Made by a program: the position numbers and the translations under genes. The notes beneath the pieces are model-generated. The model was not told where the DNA came from and ran no database searches. It worked only from the letters and a program-made list of their open reading frames with translations. A stretch of DNA of 64,000 bases from Rhodospirillales bacterium. Its GTDB lineage: Bacteria; Pseudomonadota; Alphaproteobacteria; BOG-932; Roseiterribacteraceae. The stretch lies in the NCBI GenBank assembly GCA_003165335.1, contig PLTD01000237.1:1-64000 (forward strand), in the 5' to 3' direction. Every line of letters starts with the position of its first letter. Position 1 is the stretch's first letter. This document shows positions 46,870 to 64,000 of this stretch, one piece after another.

Positions 46870-46905
46870 ACCGGCGGCCTTCGGGTCGCCGGTTTCTTCT
46901 TCTTA
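46870..46905 (+). terminator. Rho-independent terminator with UUCG tetraloop after rubrerythrin
   Basis: ACCGGCGGCC (46870-46879), loop TTCG (46880-46883), GGTCGCCGGT (46884-46893), then TTCTTCTTCTT. It is a strong 10-bp stem (one G-T pair) closed by a UUCG loop. It separates rubrerythrin from the Fe-S gene and could make it more abundant than the downstream genes. Confidence 0.85.
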
Positions 46906-48268: not shown

Positions 48269-48855
48269 TGAAGCCCCATCGGATCACCCGCGAAGACATC
48301 ATGCCGATGGCGGATTATGCCGCTATCAGACAGGAGCAGCGGCGGCGCATTTCGCAGGCGAAGCGATCGCGTCGTGTGGAAGTCGGTCCCTACTCGACCT
48401 TTTATTTCGAAAACTACGATACGATGTGGCATCAAATTCATGAGATGCTGTTCGTCGAAAAGGGTGGAGACGCTCAGATTCAAGATGAGCTGGATGCCTA
48501 CAACCCTTTAATCCCAAATGGCAATGAGCTTGTAGCGACAGTCATGTTTGAAATCCCCGAGGCGGCTAGGCGGACAGCCGTGCTCCATATGGTCGGGGGA
48601 ATCGAACATCACATGCTTATGTCTATCGGCGACGATACTATCCGTGGCGAGCCCGATGCCGACCGAGAAAACACAAGTTCGGAAGGCAAAGCTTCATCCG
48701 TCCAATTCGTTCGCTTTACGCTAACACCAAGCCAGAAGTCAGCTTTCAAGGCGCGCGAAGCAGTTGTGAGGATAGGCTTCGATCATCCGCGCTATGGTCA
48801 TTTGGCCGTAGTTCCGCCCGCTGTTCGGGAAGCACTGGCGCTGGACCTAGTCTGA
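48268..48855 (+). CDS. DUF3501-family protein
   Basis: A 195-residue cytosolic protein of the uncharacterised DUF3501 family, recognised from the N-terminus MKPHRITREDIMPMADYAAIRQEQRRRISQAKRSRRVEVGPYSTFYFENYDTMWHQIHEML and the C-terminal DHPRYGHLAVVPP. ATG 48268 overlaps the Fe-S gene's stop, so the two are translationally coupled and probably work together. No catalytic motif can be named. It is always worth reading with its Fe-S partner. Confidence 0.88.
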   Translation: MKPHRITREDIMPMADYAAIRQEQRRRISQAKRSRRVEVGPYSTFYFENYDTMWHQIHEMLFVEKGGDAQIQDELDAYNPLIPNGNELVATVMFEIPEAARRTAVLHMVGGIEHHMLMSIGDDTIRGEPDADRENTSSEGKASSVQFVRFTLTPSQKSAFKAREAVVRIGFDHPRYGHLAVVPPAVREALALDLV

Positions 48856-48931
48856 TTTAAGTAGGTCGCGTTTGTGCAGCAACCAAGCCTGCGCCAAATT
48901 GTCCTTGCACGTACTAAACGATTCGCGTATC

Positions 48932-48964
48932 AGAAGAAAAAACGGGCCGCACAAAGGCGGCCCG
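48932..48964 (-). terminator. Rho-independent terminator on the minus strand
   Basis: An 8-bp GC stem with a 6-base loop and, on the minus strand, TTTTTTCTTCT. No annotated gene ends here; it supports the small RNA above. Confidence 0.85.
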
Positions 48965-49080
48965 AGTTTAGGGAGGAAACGCCGCGTAAAAGCAGGCGTC
49001 GGATATGGCGGGGAAGATGCCATATCGATTCTCAATATATTGCAGCTGCGAAGAAACGTCAAGCGGGCGAACCGCTTTTT
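48935..49080 (-). ncRNA. Candidate trans-acting small RNA with CU-rich loops
   Basis: Reading the minus strand there are successive hairpins. The first (arms 49061-49066 and 49072-49077) is short. The next, GATATGGC/GCCATATC (49002-49009 and 49019-49026), has a CU-rich loop ATCTTCCCC. Then comes ACGCC/GGCGT (48979-48983 and 48995-48999), a single-stranded TTTCCTCCCTAAA, and a terminator: CGGGCCGC/GCGGCCCG (48943-48950 and 48957-48964) followed by TTTTTTCTTCT. Exposed CCUCC-type segments can pair with ribosome sites, as in several alphaproteobacterial small RNAs. The 5' end is not defined. Confidence 0.6.
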
Positions 49081-49228
49081 CGTGTGCGATGCGGTAACAT
49101 TTTCTTTTAATTAATGAATTTTATCTTGCACCGCACAACCCGTCTTTCTCAATTCGTACCGCCACCCTATCACAATCCCTATCCCGAAATAGCGATGTGC
49201 GCTCTGCCGCTCACCCGAGAGACCGATT

Positions 49229-63624: not shown

Positions 63625-63738
63625 CGACCCGTTCGAACTAGCTGGAGTAGAATCGATCGTTGCCGCTATGCGGTCGAAGTTGTAGCGTTCAAACCAAATC
63701 TCGGTAGTCAAAAGACGCCGGTTTCAGGGAGGAAGCTA

Positions 63739-64000
63739 ATGCTTGACCTAGTGATCAAAGATGGCCTCGTCATCGACGGTACCGGTATAGAACGCCGAGA
63801 AGCAGACGTCGGGGTACGCGACGGTCGCATCGTTGCCATCGGCAATGTGACTGAATCGGCGCGCGAGACGATCGCCGCCGACGGACGGGTCGTGTCCCCG
63901 GGCTTTATCGATGTGCATACGCACTACGACGCACAGGTCTTCTGGGACCACAGCCTAAGTCCCTCCTCCTATCATGGTGTCACCACCGTGGTCGCCGGCA
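63739..64000 (+). CDS. Amidohydrolase, D-aminoacylase-like, cut by the window end
   Basis: The first 87 residues of a metal-dependent amidohydrolase. It starts at ATG 63739 after a GGGAGGAAG site. The N-terminal beta-sandwich (LDLVIKDGLVIDGTGIERREADVGVRDGRIVAIG) leads to the metal-binding HTH in GFIDVHTHYDAQVFWD, as in N-acyl-D-amino-acid deacylases. The rest lies beyond the window. It follows the DUF1254 gene by 114 bases and may belong to the same operon. Confidence 0.88.
   Translation, partial: MLDLVIKDGLVIDGTGIERREADVGVRDGRIVAIGNVTESARETIAADGRVVSPGFIDVHTHYDAQVFWDHSLSPSSYHGVTTVVAG

Follow-up and report, generated by a model that had tools for sequence, protein, structure and literature searches.

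The αr8 family of small RNAs (sRNAs) entered the literature in 2005, when it was described as a probable small RNA (PMC1273637). The family is recognised by the core 5'-UUUCCUCCCU-3', a single-stranded segment with a weak hairpin on its 5' side and a Rho-independent terminator on its 3' side, and its usual place is the N-formylglutamate amidohydrolase (FGase) locus (PMC12559287). In Caulobacter crescentus, SisA-D pair through this 10-mer, with Hfq, and repress targets including a TonB-dependent receptor, and the sponge CrfA counters them in carbon starvation (PMC12559287). In Sinorhizobium meliloti, PhaR (AniA) and NtrC control MmgR, which in turn limits both PHB and phasins (PMC8401924, PMC12542648, PMC7143759). 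Taken as a whole, the literature on the family points to carbon/nitrogen status, PHB and control during carbon starvation (PMC12559287, PMC12542648, PMC7143759).

The locus described here lies in a window (the whole stretch of DNA analysed) of 64,000 nucleotides. An original prediction from the letters alone had proposed a small RNA on the minus strand that forms three hairpins, leaves UUUCCUCCCU exposed and finishes with an intrinsic terminator, and each of these elements lies exactly where it had been placed (Table 1). The Rfam covariance search that the prediction had proposed as a check, run on the short stretch at an E-value threshold, returned RF00519 (suhB) at 48929-49004 over the whole model (model positions 1-77) with 40.9 bits and an E-value of 3.6e-7, although this score is 0.1 bit below the gathering score of 41; at the gathering threshold, the whole window gave no match. 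The syntenic orthologue in the congener G002 reached 43.5 bits and two paralogues in the window's own genome (G000) reached 55.1 and 45.4 bits, all above the gathering score, and three strong αr8 copies are found in this genome. Among 142 sampled alphaproteobacterial genomes, RF00519 matches were found in 90 (E up to 0.01) and exceeded the cut-off in 67.

The 10-mer of the window copy is identical to the published αR8 core (PMC12559287), with a short hairpin (stem GACGCC/GGCGTT) just upstream and a Rho-independent terminator directly downstream at 48964-48937. The sRNA has a terminal T6 run, and an hfq gene is present in the genome. Two other Rfam families scored below their gathering scores, namely Hrs13 (RF02631; 28.5 bits against a gathering score of 52) and RyhB (RF00057; 20.3 bits, E 0.22, against 55). 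The αr14/NfeR1-type rhizobial sRNAs work through exposed anti-Shine-Dalgarno loops, a principle like that proposed below, and the Rfam search of the stretch gave no match to these families. Judged by its sequence, the stretch is a member of the αr8 family (MmgR/SisA, suhB RF00519), a known family and not an undescribed sRNA. New here is that an uncultured lineage close to Roseiterribacter carries three copies, that the 5' hairpin, which presents a second loop rich in C, is specific to the clade, and that a dyad is conserved in the promoter spacer. In a separate observation, G000:C218:22110-22190 (-) gave a weak RF00519 match of 31.7 bits, a doubtful and possibly diverged fourth copy.

Table 1. 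Predicted features of the αr8 locus in the window
Feature	Position	Strand	Basis or detail
Predicted αr8 (MmgR/suhB) sRNA	48937..49027	-	~91 nt; RF00519 match, promoter, terminator; ends inferred
Predicted sigma-70 promoter	49034..49062	-	consensus scan; -35 TTGACG (49062-49057), 17-nt spacer, -10 TATATT (49039-49034)
Dyad TTCGCAGCTGCAAT (YGC-N4-GCR) in -35/-10 spacer, candidate operator	49041..49054	-	recurrence in family copies
5' hairpin GATATGGC-ATCTTCCCC-GCCATATC, C-rich loop	49002..49026	-	fold
5' hairpin arms	49002-49009/49019-49026	-	loop ATCTTCCCC
Middle hairpin, stem GACGCC/GGCGTT	48977..49000	-	fold; arms 48979-48983/48995-48999
Signature 10-mer UUUCCUCCCU, single-stranded anti-Shine-Dalgarno seed	48970..48979	-	exact αR8 core match
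Intrinsic terminator, 8-bp all-GC stem, 6-nt loop, T6	48937..48964	-	sequence scan

The locus resembles MmgR in its GGCGUUUCCUCCCUAAACU-type core, the preceding hairpin, the intrinsic terminator, and a promoter of its own whose -35/-10 region holds or adjoins a dyad. It differs from MmgR, which is a single copy, in having three strong copies in the genome, with the window copy away from the FGase gene, and in its 5' hairpin, which is not that of MmgR and has the loop CUUCCCC. The dyad also differs, being GC-N4-GC in the window and GC-N3-GC in MmgR. The presence of several paralogues at separate loci with the same 10-mer is shared with SisA-D. TonB-dependent receptor mRNAs are known targets for SisA and predicted targets here. 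The promoters of the Caulobacter siblings have no common motif, whereas most copies here share the spacer dyad.

The minus strand of a 96-nt interval folded at -39.4 kcal/mol, compared with -21.9 ± 2.8 kcal/mol for dinucleotide shuffles (z -6.3, 0/200 as good). The plus strand of the sRNA interval, which contains inverted repeats, folded nearly as well (z -6.1), so folding alone cannot set the strand. The minus strand was assigned because of the T-run, the minus-strand -35/-10 and the strand of the Rfam match, and family match, promoter and terminator all agree with a small RNA on the minus strand as originally predicted. In the fold, the loop ATCTTCCCC of the 5' hairpin was unpaired (p=1.0), and this hairpin was almost invariant across 7 copies within the genus. 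The middle hairpin kept its stem in the copies compared, with a loop of variable length. The predicted exposure of an anti-Shine-Dalgarno sequence was borne out: TTTCCTCCCT was located at 48970-48979 on the minus strand, and the 10-mer was unpaired with p ~1.0 except for its first two bases, which are closing pairs of the middle hairpin, and was identical in all copies compared. An unpaired TTTCCTCCCTAAAC lies between the middle hairpin and the terminator on the same strand, and the GC arms of the terminator (48943-48950/48957-48964) are followed by TTTTTTCTTCT. The original prediction had staked the sRNA on its conservation in related genomes, and the sRNA is kept in congeners. The stems are nearly constant within the genus, and the compensatory changes that had been proposed as a check amounted to one pair, in the terminator stem of the paralogue C126; the alifold covariation term was unfavourable, and variation in the genus was too small for covariation to prove the stems.

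Hairpins in an intergenic region, together with a terminator-like hairpin on the plus strand at 49061-49077, would also fit a mere bidirectional or convergent terminator region of the neighbouring genes with no independent RNA. However, no minus-strand gene was found to end here, as the original prediction had remarked, a promoter lies 7 nt ahead of the 5' hairpin, and the unpaired 10-mer, invariant across the family, is unexplained by terminator function alone; we consider a bare terminator region extremely improbable. A small protein gene, either the 71-aa minus-strand ORF at 48847-49062 or plus-strand ORFs of 78-80 aa, has in its favour that the frames are open, but conservation tracks the RNA structure and not codons, which leaves a coding function with next to no chance. 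The 71-aa ORF was rejected, as it is broken by a 1-nt indel frameshift in a 92%-identical orthologue.

With a probability of about 0.88, we propose that the locus encodes one of three strong αr8 copies of its genome, an Hfq-dependent trans-acting sRNA of ~91 nt that blocks Shine-Dalgarno sites and whose expression is probably set by carbon/nitrogen status. A housekeeping-type promoter (49062-49034) would give an RNA ending at the terminator (48964-48937). Its unpaired UUUCCUCCCU would pair with purine-rich AGGGAGGAAA-type Shine-Dalgarno sites, and this pairing, by analogy with the relatives in Caulobacter where it was shown, would block ribosome entry and lower target expression. The mRNAs that it is likely to target are predicted to encode uptake receptors of the outer membrane, dehydrogenases of the periplasm and a PHB phasin.

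The promoter had gone unremarked in the original prediction. TTGACG-17-TATATT has 10/12 consensus matches, which as a single match is no better than chance in a 3-kb region, and TTGACG/TATAT is kept in the orthologues of G002 and of a second congener, G001. The promoter ends ~7 nt ahead of the 5' hairpin, and because it places the start ~7 nt downstream, at this hairpin, the RNA would start at ~49027 and be ~91 nt long. A dyad of the TTCGCAnnTGCR/TCGCAnnTGCR type occupies the same place in 8 of 9 family copies despite diverged flanks. Across αr8 loci, the N4-type dyad was found in 9/32 (shuffle mean 2.8), and the PhaR-type box YGCRNYGCR, scanned over the ~115 nt preceding the 10-mer, was found in 21/32 across the class (shuffle mean 2.7, maximum 8). 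The canonical GC-N3-GC box YGCRNYGCR was not found in the window promoter, whose spacer CGCAGCTGCA is GC-N4-GC, the spacing of this clade and one base wider. The window copy has a YGCRNYGCR box only far upstream, near 49086. Direct PhaR control of this copy, considered as a candidate, is not claimed, as this box lies outside the promoter.

The host genome contains phaR and two phasin genes in addition to hfq. Phasin promoters of the same genome and genus carry canonical N3 PhaR boxes (loci L068, L072 and L073; e.g., TTGCACTGCAACAT), and PhaR-phasin control appears intact in the genus. The same TTCGCAGGTGCA dyad was observed ahead of an αr8 gene in a different family (G069; L012 ~1420-1480, +), which suggests a second conserved type of regulator. 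Expression of the window sRNA is probably set by carbon/nitrogen status via the promoter-spacer site, rather than by oxidative stress. Control through this dyad is the weakest part of our best explanation, since the dyad is GC-N4-GC and not the N3 of known PhaR boxes.

The only genomes to fit the clade pattern were Rhodospirillales bacterium TMPK1 (Roseiterribacter gracilis; PMC11164329) and three MAGs, RYN_451, RYN_452 and BOG_genome_mining.73. The window copy lies between fadL/rubrerythrin/Fe-S protein/DUF3501 genes and a PQQ dehydrogenase gene, a synteny kept in G002. From these neighbours the original prediction had read a stress role. The corresponding explanation would be an sRNA dedicated to oxidative stress/iron and co-regulated with the rubrerythrin-DUF3501 module, and the module does adjoin the sRNA in both the window and G002. 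However, in G001 the orthologous sRNA adjoins the same OmpP1/FadL gene without the rubrerythrin/Fe-S/DUF3501 module between, and the sRNA lies on the strand opposite to the module with its own promoter. Unrelated genes flank the remaining αr8 copies. The paralogue C161 lies beside SDR and OPT-like transporter genes (the transporter named by eye) and is syntenic in G002 and G001; the paralogue C126, found in its own genome only, neighbours an NAD-binding oxidoreductase gene; and in the sister genus Roseiterribacter, G003 (TMPK1) and G004 have one strong copy, beside the FGase gene. A stress role read from the neighbours was therefore not supported, and we regard a dedicated oxidative-stress sRNA as very unlikely. 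The placement beside oxidative-stress genes looks incidental because the functions linked to this known family are carbon storage and nutrient uptake.

Linkage to the FGase gene was not found in the window, and the genome's own FGase genes, on C92 and C116, lack an αr8 match; this linkage is usual in single-copy genomes and is not demanded of extra copies. The simplest reading of the αr8 copies in the window's genus would be that they were duplicated and moved, the redox module being a neighbour by chance. Within the module, a GC hairpin followed by TTTCTTCTTCTT was observed at 46870-46905 (+), between the rubrerythrin gene and the gene for the Fe-S (CCG domain) protein, and because it intervenes, rubrerythrin may be transcribed apart from the DUF3501 pair.

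On the plus strand, reading on from the DUF3501 stop (48855), the terminator-like hairpin reached first is the one at 49061-49077, beyond the sRNA, and the same arrangement was observed in G002 (AAGCGGAAAACCGCTTTTTTT). Because no terminator lies between, the 3' UTR of the Fe-S protein-DUF3501 mRNA would be antisense to the whole sRNA. Such a 3' UTR, as a perfect antisense of the sRNA, might act as an αr8 sponge or transcriptional interferer, which we consider unlikely. If this coupling were true, the redox genes would be linked to the carbon regulon in species having the module.

Sites complementary to the trans-acting sRNA were screened as AGGGAGGA N3-11 ATG, with 34 sites in its own genome compared with 4 for the reversed control, 32 in G002, and 7 each in G003 and G004. 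Hfq-assisted pairing with Shine-Dalgarno sites is, by analogy, consistent with these 34 complementary sites and the hfq gene of this host, where anti-Shine-Dalgarno complementarity is expected at some level as in any genome using such sites. With genes of >= 60 aa and estimated gene totals of 4900 (G000) and 5300 (G002), TonB-dependent receptors stood behind AGGGAGGA sites in 3/25 genes of G000 (expected 0.23, hypergeometric p 0.0014) and 4/25 genes of G002 (expected 0.30, p 0.0002), two sets that are not independent as they have an orthologue in common. The AAGGAGGA sites, a closer fit to the ribosome, numbered 12 in G000 and 16 in G002, and by coordinate comparison 0 stood before TonB-dependent receptors (Fisher p 0.04). 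A PQQ dehydrogenase gene on C53 has 13 bases matching the sRNA. The phasin gene on C212 and its G002 counterpart carry the shorter complementary site GGAGGAAAC at the Shine-Dalgarno position, a type of site with only 13 and 20 occurrences in the two genomes, with a predicted duplex of -18 to -20 kcal/mol. TonB-dependent receptors, PQQ dehydrogenase and phasin are put forward as predicted targets. Separately, AGGGAGGA-type Shine-Dalgarno sequences were ~5x commoner in the multi-copy genus (G000, G002) than in the single-copy sister genus (G003, G004), and an amidohydrolase gene with its start at 63739 (+) is preceded by a AGGGAGGAA Shine-Dalgarno sequence complementary to the sRNA seed (63726-63741).

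These results place a set of αr8 sRNAs, with three strong copies, in the genus sister to Roseiterribacter, and the window's genus shows a shift away from the FGase locus seen in that sister genus. TonB-dependent receptors and phasin are predicted as conserved αr8 targets beyond Caulobacter and Sinorhizobium. The locus also serves as a warning that the role of a trans-acting sRNA is not readable from its neighbours.
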